From Microcoleus vaginatus WJT46-NPBG5 (GTDB lineage Bacteria > Cyanobacteriota > Cyanobacteriia > Cyanobacteriales > Oscillatoriaceae), in assembly GCA_019359355.1 (NCBI GenBank), contig JAHHHM010000001.1:496001-560000 (forward strand): 64,000 nucleotides of DNA. The letters run 5' to 3'. Every line of letters starts with the position of its first letter. The first letter of the stretch is position 1. The notes under the pieces are model-generated. The model did not search any database. It saw only the letters and a program-made list of their open reading frames with translations, and was not told the origin of the DNA. Position numbers and translations under genes: made by a program. Positions 20,318-27,740 of the stretch are shown here, in pieces.

Positions 20318-20344
20318 TAATCGCTCAGTATTAATGAGCGATTA
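20318..20344. terminator. Possible shared terminator hairpin between topA and tyrosinase
   Basis: A perfect 10-base stem, TAATCGCTCA (20318-20327) with TGAGCGATTA (20335-20344), and a 7-base loop lie between the convergent genes; the right arm contains the tyrosinase stop codon (20342-20344). No clear T-tract follows, so termination function is uncertain. Confidence 0.4.
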
Positions 20345-21727
20345 GCTATTTGCCTTGGCCAATGCCTTACGTTTGCGCTTGAACTGGGAGCCGGCACCCA
20401 AGGCCCCAAAGGCCAGCAACCCTAAAGCGACAGAAGGTTCAGGGACGTGTTCTGATTGATGGCAAGGCATATCGCAGGGCATCGCGATCTCGTCAGGACA
20501 CGGTTCTGTCCCGTCCCCGTGATAAGCCATGTGGCCCCAAGGGTTGTACATATAACCTGTCTGACTCTGAGCGATTGTGTTGTCCGACAAATCTGACGGG
20601 GCGCTGGCCATCATAAACAGAGACGAATCTGTAGGAGTAGCCGTTGCGGTAACTCCAGGCAAACCGGGCATTAAATCTCTCAAATCATTGGCAATGGGAA
20701 TGTTTGCTGTGTTCCAGGGGAACATTGGGTCGAGCAGGTTGTGTCCGTAAGGCTGACCACTGGAGGGATAAAAACTGTTACCCCAGCGTCCGTTCAGCTG
20801 CCATTGTCCCCAAAGGCGATCCACATTGGCATGAAGCAGGAAGAACATTGGATCATTGGGAGAATTCTGAAGATTCATCGAACCTCCGATCCAATTGTGC
20901 ATACTGTTGTGCAACCCGGTGCCGGTTTCTATACGCGAGCGAAATGCGTTATAGGTCGTTTGGGCAAGTGCACCATTTACCTGAGTTTGTGTGCCTAAGG
21001 TTGTCCAATCACGCAGACTGCGTGTGAGTTCTCGCGGAGTGCCGGTGGATAGTCCTGTCCATGCGCCCCTGTTAAGGGTATTGCTCAAGTCTCTTCTCAA
21101 AAGCCATCCATTCGCGCGGGAGAAAGGCCCAGACTGAACCGTTCCGCCTCCAACACCCCCAGTCCCGCCATTGGGACCCATGAAGTTGTTTTGAAAAATA
21201 ATGTTTCGTGTGGCGGTTTGATTTGTCCAATCCCAGTAGGGAAGTGTCACACTGGAGTCTACTGTTTGTAAGGCTCTTTCAAATTCATCTAAAAACTGCC
21301 GGTGCCACGGCAGAAAGGCAGCGTTGCCATGAGCGCCATTCACTAATGTCGTGCCATTTGGAGCGAGACGGCCTGTCATATCCATTGTTGCTAAATGGGT
21401 GGCCACAAACTGGTCATACTCGCTGATGCGAACGCCGTTTGGGGTGGTAACGAATCTTTGGGTTTTTAAGGCGACGACGGCATTGACGAACCTATCTATT
21501 TCAGTGCGGGTCATCGTCGCGGCATTTCTTCTCACCTGCAAAGTTCCACTGGTATTCCCAGAGTTGGGCATGGTGTCATATCTGTAGCCCAGACGCGTGA
21601 AATCTATAACGTCTGCCGGCCTGACATTGCTTCTAGCAAAAGTAAAGGCTTGAGCCGGATTCGCACAGAAGGCTACAACCGTGCCGGCGACTAAACCGAT
21701 GCCGGTGAAAGCACGTTTAAGATCCAT
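20342..21727 (-). CDS. Exported tyrosinase (type 3 copper enzyme) with PEP-CTERM anchor, copy 1
   Basis: A 461-residue tyrosinase-family protein (from ATG 21727, chosen because GGGGGAAT precedes it and a signal peptide begins there). It would oxidise phenols using a dinuclear copper centre. All six copper His are present: His111, His133 and His142 (CuA, NGAHGNAAFLPWHRQF) and His273, His277 and His299 (CuB, LHNSMHNWIGG and LLHANVDRLW). A signal peptide ends near NPAQA-F. The C-terminus has a Cys/His cluster (Cys410, Cys418, Cys422, His423, His427), then VPEPS, a hydrophobic stretch and a basic tail, the PEP-CTERM signal recognised by exosortase, so the protein is probably processed at the cell envelope. 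The neighbouring gene at 22432-23784 is a paralogue. Possible roles are melanin-like pigment or polyphenol oxidation; unproven. Confidence 0.93.
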   Translation of the reverse strand: MDLKRAFTGIGLVAGTVVAFCANPAQAFTFARSNVRPADVIDFTRLGYRYDTMPNSGNTSGTLQVRRNAATMTRTEIDRFVNAVVALKTQRFVTTPNGVRISEYDQFVATHLATMDMTGRLAPNGTTLVNGAHGNAAFLPWHRQFLDEFERALQTVDSSVTLPYWDWTNQTATRNIIFQNNFMGPNGGTGGVGGGTVQSGPFSRANGWLLRRDLSNTLNRGAWTGLSTGTPRELTRSLRDWTTLGTQTQVNGALAQTTYNAFRSRIETGTGLHNSMHNWIGGSMNLQNSPNDPMFFLLHANVDRLWGQWQLNGRWGNSFYPSSGQPYGHNLLDPMFPWNTANIPIANDLRDLMPGLPGVTATATPTDSSLFMMASAPSDLSDNTIAQSQTGYMYNPWGHMAYHGDGTEPCPDEIAMPCDMPCHQSEHVPEPSVALGLLAFGALGAGSQFKRKRKALAKANS

Positions 21728-22431
21728 AAGATTCCCCCAATAAAAGCGCAAAATTAATATAGGCATATTTAAAATGTCGTTGGCGCTCTGCCAAGATTGC
21801 TTAGCTAGCGCCTAGGCGATAAGTTCCAATACTCTGCTTTGTGCAGTGACGCGAGTAGTTTGGCTTCACTTCATGCAAAGCAGAGCCGGCTGAGAATTAC
21901 AACAAATTTCTTCTCAACAGGATTAGCAACTATGTTTAGTTGGTTATATTGACAAGCTTGACAAAAGTGTTTTCTTCGAGTTTTCACGAGCGGAAAGAAT
22001 CTCGAACCCCGACTCTCTAAGAGCTTGACTTTTTATATTATCTATGTAAGTAAGTATATACGTATCTTCTGCTATTTTGTTGCCAAAATGGCAGCTTTTT
22101 TTGAATAAAACAAAGCCTTGGAAAAGTTTTTAACTGAGGAGGGGCCTTCGATAGGTGCCGGCTCATCGAAACATGATTTTTTTTACCGCTGAGAGCCGGC
22201 ATAGAAGTAGACGAACTGTAGACTAAACTGCCTGAAAAATACTATAGAGGCGAGATGGGGCAGTTATTGAAGAGTCCATGAATCCTCAAAGCGTTCAAAA
22301 TTACTTATTTTTTTAATGTTTGTTTGATCCATCTGTAATTTCAGGAAGCTGGTTGAAGTTTAACAGTAGGGTCTGGTCGCCAACTAACAAACTGATTCAG
22401 TGAGTTTGGGTCAAGTTAGCCGGCTGTAATC
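21728..22431. other. 704-base intergenic region between the two tyrosinase genes
   Basis: AT-rich DNA without a gene. It must carry the end of copy 2 transcription and the promoter of copy 1. GC-rich arms TGCCGGCTCA and TGAGAGCCGGCA (about 22157-22202) form an imperfect inverted repeat with a run of eight T in the loop. No other element recognised. Confidence 0.4.
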
Positions 22432-23784
22432 TTAAACTTTTTGCGGTTGTTTACGCTTACGCAAGCGACCGGCACCCAATGCCCCAAATGCTAATAGACC
22501 AAATATAGAAGCCGGTTCAGGAACGTGTTCTGATTGATGGCAAGGCATATCACAGGGCATATCTATTTCGTCAGGACACGGTTCATCTCCATGATAGGCA
22601 TGATGACCCCAAGGATTGTACGTATTGCCGGTGGTATCTGAAAACAAATCTTCCGGCGCGCTGGCCATTAAAAATGATGAGAAATTAGAATTGGGTGGAG
22701 CAACACCTGGTAACCCAGGGAGTAGAGCGGCCAAGTCAGCGGCAATCTTTGATTGACCTCGATCCCAAGGCCACATTGGGTCGAGCCGGCTGTGTCCGTA
22801 ACCCTGGAAATTAGCAGCATAAGCCTCTGCACCATTCAAACGACCAGTACCCGCAACAGCAGTCTGCCATCTGGCCCAGAGGCGATCAACGTTGGCATGA
22901 AGCATCCAAAATATGGGATCGTTGGGAGAAGTCATCAAGTTCATTGAGCCTCCCACCCAGTTGTGCATGGGGTTGTGTATGTTTAACTCGATCCTGTTGT
23001 TTAACGTAAGGTAGCTAGTTGTATTGAGGGCTGTATTTTCCTGGGCGGCAGTGATCATCCCCCGATTCGTTGGTCCAGGGGCAAACGAACCCAAGTTGCG
23101 TGTCAGTGCTTGTGTGCCGGTGGAGGTTCCCAGCCAAACGTCACGACTCAAGTCACTTCTCTGAACCCATCCGCGGGCAGTTGTGAAAGGCCCACTCTGA
23201 ACCGCCCCACCAGGGTTTCCATTGGTGCTCCCATTGCCTCCCATAAAATTGTTTGTAAAGATGACGTTTTGAGAGCCACTAATATCCGTCCAATCCCAAT
23301 AGGGAATGGTTACAGTCGGATCTACAACTTGTAATGCCTTTTCAAATTCATATGTAAACGTCCGGTGCCACGGCAAAAAGCCGGCCCTGCCATGTGCCGC
23401 ATTAACTAAAGGACGCCCATCTGGCCCAGGCCGGCCGGCTAAATCCATCGCTCCCAAATGGGCTGCCACAAATTGGTCATACTCACTGATGACAACACCG
23501 TTCGCAGCCGTCACCGTCCTGGTTTTTAACATCCGGATAGCATTTACGAACCGCTCTATCTCAGTCGCATTCAAGGTAGCCGCGTTTCTTCTGACCTGTA
23601 AACCTGCCGTGCCGCCAGGAACATTTATACCGCTGTATGTATAACCCAGCGCTCTAAAGTCCAGAACGTCATTTGGTGTGTAAAAATTGCGGGTAAAAGT
23701 AAATGCTTGTGCTTGTACTGCACCAAACACGATAGCACTGCCTGTGATTAAGCCGAGCCAGGTAGAAGCGCGTTTTAGATTCAT
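22432..23784 (-). CDS. Exported tyrosinase with PEP-CTERM anchor, copy 2
   Basis: A 450-residue paralogue of the downstream tyrosinase (ATG 23784, preceded by GGAAGGA). CuA ligands lie in AAHLGAMD, NAAHGRAGFLPWHRTF; CuB ligands in LNIHNPMHNWVGG and MLHANVDRLW. The signal peptide ends at about VQAQA-F. The C-terminal Cys/His cluster (PCPDEIDMPCDMPCHQSEH) is almost identical to copy 1, followed by VPEPAS, a hydrophobic segment and RLRKRK, a PEP-CTERM signal. Overall similarity is high in the catalytic core but inserts differ, so this is an old tandem duplication. Both genes have their own long upstream regions, so they are probably transcribed separately. No copper chaperone (caddie) gene is adjacent. 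Confidence 0.93.
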   Translation of the reverse strand: MNLKRASTWLGLITGSAIVFGAVQAQAFTFTRNFYTPNDVLDFRALGYTYSGINVPGGTAGLQVRRNAATLNATEIERFVNAIRMLKTRTVTAANGVVISEYDQFVAAHLGAMDLAGRPGPDGRPLVNAAHGRAGFLPWHRTFTYEFEKALQVVDPTVTIPYWDWTDISGSQNVIFTNNFMGGNGSTNGNPGGAVQSGPFTTARGWVQRSDLSRDVWLGTSTGTQALTRNLGSFAPGPTNRGMITAAQENTALNTTSYLTLNNRIELNIHNPMHNWVGGSMNLMTSPNDPIFWMLHANVDRLWARWQTAVAGTGRLNGAEAYAANFQGYGHSRLDPMWPWDRGQSKIAADLAALLPGLPGVAPPNSNFSSFLMASAPEDLFSDTTGNTYNPWGHHAYHGDEPCPDEIDMPCDMPCHQSEHVPEPASIFGLLAFGALGAGRLRKRKQPQKV

Positions 23785-24773
23785 GTAATTATCCTTCCAA
23801 CACAATATAAATTCAGGGCTGGATTCTAAACGACATTCGCAATATTCTCGGCTGACCCTGAGCTACAAATATTTAGTGAATTAAGCCCGCGTTCTTTAGA
23901 GATTTGTGGTTACGCTTATCCTAGGATAAAGCCATCCCGACATATTCACTCTCAAAATCTCTGTATTTTTACGGAATCTTTATAAATTAATCCTAGGAAA
24001 AATAATTTGAGCTTTAAAAAGAAGGCGGTAATTTCCCCTACGCTTCCCCATCTTTTCTTAAAAAATATTGCTAATAAATCAATAAATCCTGCAAGCTATT
24101 TCAGGAAAAGCTAGAATTTTTATTGGTTCAACTTTCTATTTTTTTAGTGTAGTGAGTCATAGCTAAATATTATTAAATTTATTTAAATTTCAAGAATTTT
24201 ATCCTACAAAATCCTTGAAGTGCTTATCCATCAACCCATTTCGCTCTGACTGAATGACCGCAAAAATTGTTTATTATATTAATTTTAAAACAAAACTTTG
24301 ATTAATTAAATAATTATAATTACCAGATTTGTTTATTTTATCAATAAAAATATTTAGGTTTTTGTAGTTATACTTAAGTAGCGGATATTTTTAATAGCTA
24401 CTAGATTCAGTGTATTTTAAAAAAATGAATAAATTAATAATAAGTAGTTTTGTTAACCGAAAGTTCTGTAAAGATTTTGTAAAGATAAATCACTAAATGA
24501 CTAAATAGATATTATAAAAGCAGAAGAAATACAACGACTGAGTCCAACAGATTGGTTGGATGCATTGATGAATGGTTCCAAAAAGCAGACTTTTATGAAC
24601 TGACCCTAACCGGCAACCTGTAAGCTGAGCAGCCCCCTATGCAATTACGCGGAGCGCAGATCAGTGGTGAGTAAGTAACCGAGTGTATTGCTCAAATCCT
24701 TGGACTGAATAAGTTTATAGAGCGCTCCACACTCAGCACTCACCACTCAACACGAGAAGAAAGTGCTTTAGAC
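23785..24773. other. 989-base very AT-rich intergenic region
   Basis: This region lies between alanine dehydrogenase and tyrosinase copy 2, both on the minus strand. No frame looks like a gene. It contains short direct repeats such as GTAAAGAT (about 24470-24486) and palindromic CCTAGGA motifs around 23930 and 23992. The promoter of tyrosinase copy 2 must lie at its left end. No RNA gene recognised. Confidence 0.4.
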
Positions 24774-27026: not shown

Positions 27027-27302
27027 AGAATGCAGAAATTTTTCAAAGCGGGTTGATTGAGAATTTTGAATGTGTGATTAGCACGGTGGTTAAACCCGCT
27101 CATTGGAAAAGTTGAGATAGAAATCCGCTCACGGTAGCAGCATAGCAAAAGTTTCCAGCCTTCCACCGGCTGGCGCGTCCCATTTTTTTCTTGTAATAAT
27201 TTTTACTGCTTGCCGGCTAGAGCGGATTAGCTTACTAGAAAAAAAAGAAACTTAGTGAGCTTTGTCGCTCATCACCAGGCAAATCTTATTAGAACGAGAA
27301 TT

Positions 27303-27740
27303 ATGAGCACTCGCGCTATCGCCAAATTGCTTAAAATTGGCGAAGTAGCAGCCGGCACAGGGGTGCCGGTTAAAACCATTCGCTACTACGATGAAATTGG
27401 TTTGTTGGCTCCTACCGTAGAACGCTCTGATTCAGGATACCGACTTTTTAATGAAGCGATCATGAATCGGTTAGCATTTATTAAGCGAGCGCAATCTTTA
27501 GGACTTAGTCTCAGTGAAATACAAGAACTGCTGCTCATCCACGATCACGGAACGTTACCTTGCGGCGAAGTTAAACACCGGCTGCAAGCAAAATTAGAAG
27601 AAATTGCCGAGCAAATTGCCGCCTTGGAAATGCTAAAAGCTGAATTGCAAGGGCTGCTAAGCGGATGGGAAGAACAACCGCCGGCTCACCTAATTGCCCA
27701 AACAATATGTCCGAACATTCAATCGAATAATGATGAATGA
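27303..27740 (+). CDS. MerR-family transcriptional regulator (heavy-metal type)
   Basis: A 145-residue regulator. The winged helix-turn-helix is clear (LKIGEVAAGTGVPVKTIRYYDEIGLL, RSDSGYRLFN), followed by the long dimerisation helix. A Cys87 in GTLPCGEVKHRL and Cys136 in TICPNIQ align with the first and last metal ligands of MerR/ZntR-type sensors, but the intermediate Cys pair is missing, so the ligand set is incomplete. The frame extends to a GTG at 27255; ATG 27303 starts where the family begins. The WD40 gene begins 6 bases after the stop, so the two are likely co-transcribed, an unusual pairing because metal MerR genes usually neighbour an efflux pump. Confidence 0.9.
   Translation: MSTRAIAKLLKIGEVAAGTGVPVKTIRYYDEIGLLAPTVERSDSGYRLFNEAIMNRLAFIKRAQSLGLSLSEIQELLLIHDHGTLPCGEVKHRLQAKLEEIAEQIAALEMLKAELQGLLSGWEEQPPAHLIAQTICPNIQSNNDE

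Follow-up and report, generated by a model that had tools for sequence, protein, structure and literature searches.

Circular permutation of a tyrosinase is, to our knowledge, known only as a protein-engineering result; Lee et al. (2019; cited in PMC8466947) reportedly engineered a bacterial tyrosinase into a circular permutant that, by the title of the work, is active. The tyrosinase of Aspergillus oryzae is loaded with copper via a CXXC motif. Excerpts of the literature describe a caddie protein that delivers copper in Streptomyces (PMC11608171), a fungal enzyme, AbPPO4, whose free Cys all lie in a C-terminal CXXC (PMC5431950), and a homology model in which the tyrosine motif and a conserved N-terminal Arg bridge the chain ends via beta-sheet and pi-cation contacts (PMC6238066). 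Here we analyse two tandem tyrosinase genes, P1 and P2, in a 64,000-nucleotide stretch of the cyanobacterium Microcoleus vaginatus WJT46-NPBG5 (GenBank assembly GCA_019359355.1, contig JAHHHM010000001.1, positions 496,001 to 560,000 of the forward strand; hereafter the window), in which the tyrosine motif stands at the N-terminus. Judged by sequence, P1 and P2 are a variant of the tyrosinase family and not canonical members. A literature search on circular permutation and tyrosinase, covering titles and the starts of abstracts for part of the matches, returned no natural circularly permuted tyrosinase, and one on tyrosinase, cyanobacteria and PEP-CTERM found no paper.

Results

The tyrosine motif of P1 and P2

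The first-pass annotation of this locus described tandem tyrosinase paralogues with all six copper His, signal peptides and PEP-CTERM ends, and each of these features was recovered, the signal peptides by eye. P1 and P2 are 57% identical over 465 aligned positions and score 151.9 and 155.4 bits against PF00264 (Tyrosinase; curated cut-off 22.6 bits). Their CuA and CuB histidine patterns, with six copper His, are complete, as they are in 12 of the 12 permuted proteins described below. Against NF047834, the MelC2 equivalog, they reach 165.6 and 148.9 bits, far under the cut-off of 450. What the annotation overlooked is the permuted architecture, which is more unusual than the Cys/His segment that it had singled out.

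In other tyrosinases and hemocyanins the tyrosine motif, a block of the form TPxDxLDFxxLGYxYD, ends the core. In P1 and P2 this family motif is present but N-terminal: it follows the signal peptide and precedes the first core strand (QVRRN), with a connecting loop of ~13-22 residues. A forward profile was built from 25 distinct C-terminal motifs of relatives, with no N-terminal motif used. The profile matched residues 36-54 of P1 (in a 462-residue reading) at 23.3 bits and the N-terminus of P2 at 25.9 bits, and it scored 18.6-27.2 bits against the N-termini of eight small proteins, which come as one pair in each of four genomes. At the C-terminus the same profile reached at most 2.3 bits in six distinct permuted proteins and, at E <= 0.01, matched none of the eight.

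The forward profile was applied to 123 distinct tyrosinase open reading frames (ORFs; 149 loci). The motif was N-terminal in 8, C-terminal in 67 and undetected in 48, with no ORF having both; up to 28 of the C-terminal ORFs had contributed to building the profile. Cores are complete in 96 of these ORFs (63 C-terminal, 8 N-terminal in four pairs, 25 undetected, 0 both) and the other 27 are incomplete (4 C-terminal, 23 undetected). An earlier regular-expression survey of 85 ORFs, superseded by the profile survey, gave the same picture. A reverse profile was made from 10 permuted N-terminal segments and run on 115 other ORFs, none of which had served in building it; the motif was C-terminal in 62, undetected in 53 and N-terminal in none. 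Searched against all PDB sequences, this profile gave three matches at E <= 10, all of them mollusc hemocyanins (E 2.1e-8, 1e-5 and 1.7), and in KLH1 (4bed_B) the match lies at 264-285, past the tyrosinase-like match at 60-230. Profiles in both directions thus revealed the sequence marks of a circular permutant, namely a changed order of segments and an empty old place. On these comparisons the motif block has almost certainly been relocated to the N-terminus, and a true structural circular permutation is very probable.

Further proteins with the permuted motif order

A junction profile (A3), comprising the N-terminal block and the start of the core, was searched in 388 genomes of the class and matched 22 places. 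Two are the window genes, and four others, from two other cyanobacterial families, span the whole junction: those in G799 and G780 (family f25) and two in G887 (f23). A further 16 matches start no earlier than model position 12. The two starting at 12-13 belong to the L006 and L007 genes, in which the motif is C-terminal; of the other 14 partial matches, some were inspected individually. The orders of G780 and G887 (29 and 42 genomes) yielded no additional full junctions.

The four proteins found in this way are large. Two, of 2768 and 1595 amino acids (aa), have DUF4347, FG-GAP and SWM repeats; one of 1676 aa has FG-GAP and SWM repeats and one of 796 aa has an SWM repeat, both being cut by contig ends. 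Each contains a single Pfam tyrosinase domain with the motif block just before it (10.3-18.3 bits) and repeats of other families upstream. The core is followed by a long insert, then by ..LYxDTDxSLYNPxFG or similar, which by eye resembles DLFSDTTGNTYNPWG of P2, and then by the tail. These tails are His/Asp-rich, with runs such as HSEHDHSDHDMGDMTGGM or YCQCKQGNSCGKPK and, in some, YCxCKxGNxCGKPKxP repeats; 34 residues of the L185 tail are read as X. Read-through of a tandem array, in which the N-terminal block would derive from the end of an upstream tyrosinase domain since lost, was not supported: in all four large proteins the single tyrosinase domain is preceded by repeats of other families (two are cut on that side).

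In a tree of 86 cores with a midpoint root and some long branches, a branch with support 100/98 separates the 12 permuted cores from the other 74, which include non-cyanobacterial rows. Since the canonical order is also that of hemocyanins, the permutation is most simply the derived state.

Beside the G780 giant, a 1782 aa ORF (L185, 2245-7590) reads by eye like an AMP-binding/ketoreductase/thioesterase assembly-line enzyme.

The Cys/His segment and the tails

Before the PEP-CTERM signal, P1 and P2 share the nearly identical Cys/His segment reported in the first-pass annotation. The segment (YNPWG...PCH) is 26/28 identical between them, compared to 162/272 in the core (Fisher p 1.8e-4). For the pair in G388, a genome of a different genus in the same family, the values are 26/29 and 139/263 (p 6e-5). 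The consensus YNPWGHxAYHGD..PCPD.....PCDxPCH is kept in all eight small proteins. Apart from its three Cys, spaced C-x7/8-C-x3-C-H, none of the eight has a Cys in the mature protein. Of the residues shared by P1 and P2, a fraction of 0.57 use the same codon in the segment, against 0.54 in the core. Because the codons are as diverged as in the core, the likeness of the segments points to selection on the protein, and gene conversion in the recent past was rejected as its cause.

The PCDxPCH pattern has no other occurrence in the genome. PEP-CTERM places over the cut-off number 15, of which 13 are in other proteins; among the 12 of these that were read, the 60 residues before PEP hold no Cys in 11 and a single one in the twelfth. 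The segment is also absent from five cyanobacterial tyrosinases (L005, L015, L019, L037 and L092) whose PEP-CTERM-like ends were judged by pattern or by eye, the start of L037 being cut off. It is therefore a general feature of neither tyrosinases nor anchors. The first-pass annotation had named absence from otherwise similar cyanobacterial tyrosinases as telling against its reading, and for tyrosinases in general these five proteins largely bear this out. However, in all five the motif is C-terminal, and the segment thus goes with the permuted architecture.

The tails of the permuted proteins are of a putative metal-binding type. The best 30 consecutive residues after YNP contain 7-13 His, Cys and Met in the 12 permuted proteins. 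The 67 non-permuted proteins with a C-terminal motif have a median tail length of 12; in the 20 tails of at least 30 residues the best counts were 8, 7, 7 and 5, with the rest at most 3 and a median of 1 (Mann-Whitney p 3e-6, kinship ignored). His, Cys and Met make up a fraction of 0.13-0.31 of the whole tail in the permuted proteins; in 21 non-permuted tails of at least 20 residues the fraction does not exceed 0.118. Because the 12 proteins are one clade, this coupling of tail and permutation counts as one association and not twelve.

The annotation had noted that no caddie gene adjoins the pair, and this extends to the whole genome, in which no MelC1 caddie (PF06236) was found over the cut-off (best E 0.86). 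The built-in copper-loading segment that it had suggested gains comparative support from this result and from the His/Cys/Met-rich tails of all 12 permuted proteins.

The PEP-CTERM end is clear in P2 and borderline in P1. Against the Pfam family, P2 is above the cut-off (22.3 vs 20.7 bits) and P1 below it (18.0). Against TIGR02595 (NCBIfam, cut-off 16), both are over in the genome search (P2 25.9, P1 18.5 bits), and P1 reached 15.3 in the protein scan. Two PF09721 exosortase matches over the cut-off were found, both elsewhere in the genome, as the annotation had led us to look for. On contig C28 of G000 (about 103450-104580; L152 and L067), a PEP-CTERM protein gene is closely followed by an exosortase gene in the same orientation.

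Structure models

An AlphaFold model of P2 built from 28 alignment rows (model 1) has a good core, which matches 9h2o_A, the Priestia megaterium tyrosinase and among its best structural matches, with Z 30.7 and a root mean square deviation of 2.8 over 267 residues at 36% identity. The alignment had placed the C-terminal motif of relatives on GNTYN of P2, which biased the model at that end. The structural comparison supports the tyrosinase core only. Tail confidence was low in model 1 and in a second model, with block means of the predicted local distance difference test score (pLDDT) of about 28-41 in the tail. Where the moved strand sits in the fold is inferred, since both models are under pLDDT 50 there, and neither was used as support for the permutation.

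The locus and its neighbourhood

The pair sits between topA and ald (Table 1). The same topA-pair-ald arrangement is seen in the two other genomes of the genus and in G388, and the surrounding order is common to the four genomes. A family survey of eight genomes found the pair in 4 and only a different tyrosinase in 1 (G390), with 3 giving no match at E <= 1e-20. In the host genome, only the two window genes are P1-like at E <= 0.001. The annotation's remark that tyrosinase is not a standard cyanobacterial enzyme is partly right, with PF00264 matches (E <= 1e-10) in 65 of 388 genomes sampled from the order of the host. By eye, the tyrosinase domains of L062 (G390), L042 and L047 are fused to long C-terminal regions resembling von Willebrand factor A, and in L145 (G491) GGxGDD-type repeats resembling those in RTX proteins come after the tyrosinase end.

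Scanned neighbours include topA, ald, a MerR gene, and WD40, helicase and M48 genes. We rejected a copper operon at this site, as no copper gene was found among the neighbours scanned. The gene for the MerR-family regulator lies at 27255-27740, close to but not adjoining the pair. Long stretches 5' of both tyrosinase genes (21728-22431 and 23785-24773) are 72-88% identical in the genus and match no Rfam family. Searches of the locus found no regulatory RNA or tandem repeats, and promoter- and terminator-like sites showed no excess over shuffled sequence. Matches occurred in 95 plasmid records, none covering 80% of the query; the 12 of these 95 that were listed all start at query residue 56-59 and so are without the N-terminal block. 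Viral contigs gave no match to the query.

Table 1. Features of the tyrosinase pair (window positions) and the large permuted proteins (positions within the named loci)
Feature	Position	Strand	Basis
Tyrosinase paralogue 1 (P1)	20342..21727	-	ORF, 461 aa from ATG; PF00264 E 4.3e-44
P1 signal peptide, ends AQA/F (cleavage at the slash)	21647..21727	-	hydrophobic stretch, by eye
P1 N-terminal, relocated tyrosine-motif block VRPADVIDFTRLGYRYDTM	21569..21625	-	relatives' C-terminal motif profile, 23.3 bits
P1 tyrosinase central domain (CuA, CuB)	20798..21424	-	PF00264, residues 103-311
P1 Cys/His segment YNPWGHMAYHGDGTEPCPDEIAMPCDMPCH	20459..20548	-	sequence comparison
P1 PEP-CTERM sorting signal	20366..20446	-	TIGR02595, 18.5 bits in genome search
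Tyrosinase paralogue 2 (P2)	22432..23784	-	ORF, 450 aa; PF00264 E 3.6e-45
P2 signal peptide, ends AQA/F	23704..23784	-	by eye
P2 N-terminal, relocated tyrosine-motif block TPNDVLDFRALGYTYS	23632..23679	-	relatives' C-terminal motif profile, 25.9 bits
P2 tyrosinase central domain	22861..23487	-	PF00264, residues 100-308
P2 Cys/His segment YNPWGHHAYHGDEPCPDEIDMPCDMPCH	22537..22620	-	sequence comparison
P2 PEP-CTERM sorting signal	22447..22524	-	PF07589 22.3 bits, TIGR02595 25.9 bits
Gap between P1 and P2 genes	21728..22431	.	88% identical to G387, 72% to G386; no Rfam match
Large permuted protein, L185	8150-16453		ORF
Large permuted protein, L186	3972-8756		ORF
Large permuted protein, L184	1335-6362		ORF
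Large permuted protein, L183	3147-5534		ORF

Discussion

P1 and P2 are most likely caddie-free, envelope-anchored phenol oxidases. In the mechanism that we propose, the moved strand would pair beside the N-terminal Arg strand, preserving the fold although the chain ends at another point. At the C-terminus so freed stand a conserved YNPxxG element, a His/Cys/Met-rich tail and the PEP-CTERM signal, in that order. The tail may bind copper outside the cytoplasm and load or guard the dinuclear site in cis, taking the place of a separate caddie protein such as that of Streptomyces, as has been proposed for C-terminal domains elsewhere. Exosortase would anchor the enzyme in the envelope, where phenols would be oxidised. 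By analogy, the caddie and CXXC-type roles could be united on the single chain of a permuted enzyme that has a His/Cys/Met tail. In both proteins Asn follows the first and the second CuB His (HNSMHNW in P1 and HNPMHNW in P2). Asn at both activity-controller positions is reported for the Verrucomicrobium spinosum tyrosinase in an excerpt of PMC10526336, and this shared Asn pair makes monophenol activity of P1 and P2 plausible.

Taken as a whole, the statement that these are exported, envelope-anchored type 3 copper oxidases with a naturally permuted core and a copper-handling tail in cis is evenly poised between true and false. The copper-handling tail by itself falls a little short of that. 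More tentative still is the scenario of a single-origin lineage of natural permuted tyrosinases in cyanobacteria, in which the move of the strand freed the C-terminus for a built-in copper-delivery tail, and which would exist both as small tandem enzymes anchored by PEP-CTERM and as giant surface proteins of the DUF4347/FG-GAP type carrying long His/Met/Cys tails.

Several observations weigh against this proposal, and we set them out with the alternatives on which they bear. In the PDB search the reverse profile matched hemocyanins only and no bacterial tyrosinase. The N-terminal block has a pLDDT of about 30 in model 1, with the N-terminal 62 residues under 50, and in model 2, for which the relatives were cut before the motif, residues 1-35 and 315-391 are under pLDDT 50. 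P1-type proteins retain GYMY at the C-terminus, possibly as a remnant or a substitute, and model 1 has a one-residue strand at Y389 (GNTYN), so a C-terminal element could occupy the place of the motif. Had the motif been duplicated and not moved, the N-terminal block would be an extra copy and the C-terminal YNPWG the diverged, working original. The GYMYN kept in P1-type proteins fits such a history, as does its alignment by MAFFT with the motif of relatives, from which the model with the one-residue strand was made. However, the C-terminal copy scores at most 2.3 bits in six distinct proteins against 18.6-27.2 bits at the N-terminus of all eight, Y-X-Y is kept in 8/8 N-terminal copies compared to 4/8 C-terminal ones, and the YNP element of the large proteins stands far downstream of the core, behind the long insert. 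We consider duplication improbable.

For the copper-handling tail the evidence is more divided. Across genera the segment is 22/28 identical in both presumed orthologue pairs, and its excess over the core (p 0.19 and 0.03) is significant in one pair only; the assignment of the G388 copies to the window copies is itself uncertain, as two trees place one copy differently. Both G388 tails overlap the three highest non-permuted ones (7 vs 8, 7 and 7) and lack the tail Met residues. The three Cys could form disulfides instead of binding copper, and a disulfide link and an aromatic lid are real alternatives to a copper tail. A disulfide or intermolecular cross-link, which would pair the paralogues or bind an envelope partner with no copper role, suits the odd number of Cys, all in the tail in 8/8. 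It also suits the G388 tails, which are 26/29 alike compared to 22/28 with their presumed window counterparts, as for partners; the cross pair G000_2/G388_1 reaches 24/28. Metal binding better suits the His/Asp/Met-rich tails of the large relatives, one of which (L183) has a single Cys, and we regard the cross-link as rather unlikely. If the tail were instead a lid, an aromatic residue of YNPWGH or AYHGD would sit in the active site and keep the enzyme latent until cleavage at the anchor, with no copper carried. YNPWGHxAYHGD is invariant in 8/8 except at one position, and C-terminal extensions and caddies are described in an excerpt of PMC10526336 as giving gatekeeper residues in the V. spinosum, fungal and Streptomyces enzymes. 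A lid leaves the Cys/Met/His part and the His/Met-rich tails of the large relatives unexplained; it too is unlikely, if less so than the cross-link, and lid and copper roles may coexist in the tail. The first-pass annotation had also offered the segment as a hook for the anchor step. Although it directly precedes VPEP in P1 and P2, its absence from the other PEP-CTERM proteins and from the five tyrosinases with PEP-CTERM-like ends, together with the metal-type tails in large relatives where no PEP-CTERM end was seen, makes a part in the sorting signal or exosortase recognition highly improbable.

If the natural permutation is real, the motif by which the end of the catalytic domain is recognised in tyrosinases, polyphenol oxidases and hemocyanins tolerates relocation while the copper site is retained. 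The proteins would offer compact enzymes for studying copper loading on one chain, and they would point to envelope phenol oxidation in some cyanobacteria.

Among known systems, the Priestia (Bacillus) megaterium tyrosinase (9H2O, 3NM8) and Streptomyces MelC2 have the same central domain and six His as P1 and P2. In these canonical enzymes, however, the tyrosine motif ends the core, whereas in P1 and P2 it is N-terminal; MelC2 moreover requires the separate caddie MelC1, whereas the host genome of P1 and P2 is without a caddie match over the cut-off. The likeness to AbPPO4, as far as the excerpt describes it, lies in free Cys confined to the C-terminal extension, as in the tails of P1 and P2. 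The CXXC of the fungal pro-tyrosinases, which marks a copper chaperone in cis, is absent from the C-terminal extension of P1 and P2, where a C-x3-C-H in a short tail is found instead, and the comparison is one of working and not of homology. The V. spinosum tyrosinase is likewise a caddie-independent bacterial enzyme with a C-terminal extension and the Asn pair, but its extension is a predicted jelly roll, and the excerpt (PMC10526336) mentions neither an anchor tail nor a permutation. The five cyanobacterial tyrosinases with PEP-CTERM-like ends resemble P1 and P2 in that combination and differ in their C-terminal motif (in L092 by eye) and in lacking the Cys/His segment. The permutant of Lee et al. 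(2019), finally, is a laboratory construct, whereas the permutation described here would be natural, shared by 12 proteins and accompanied by a new tail.

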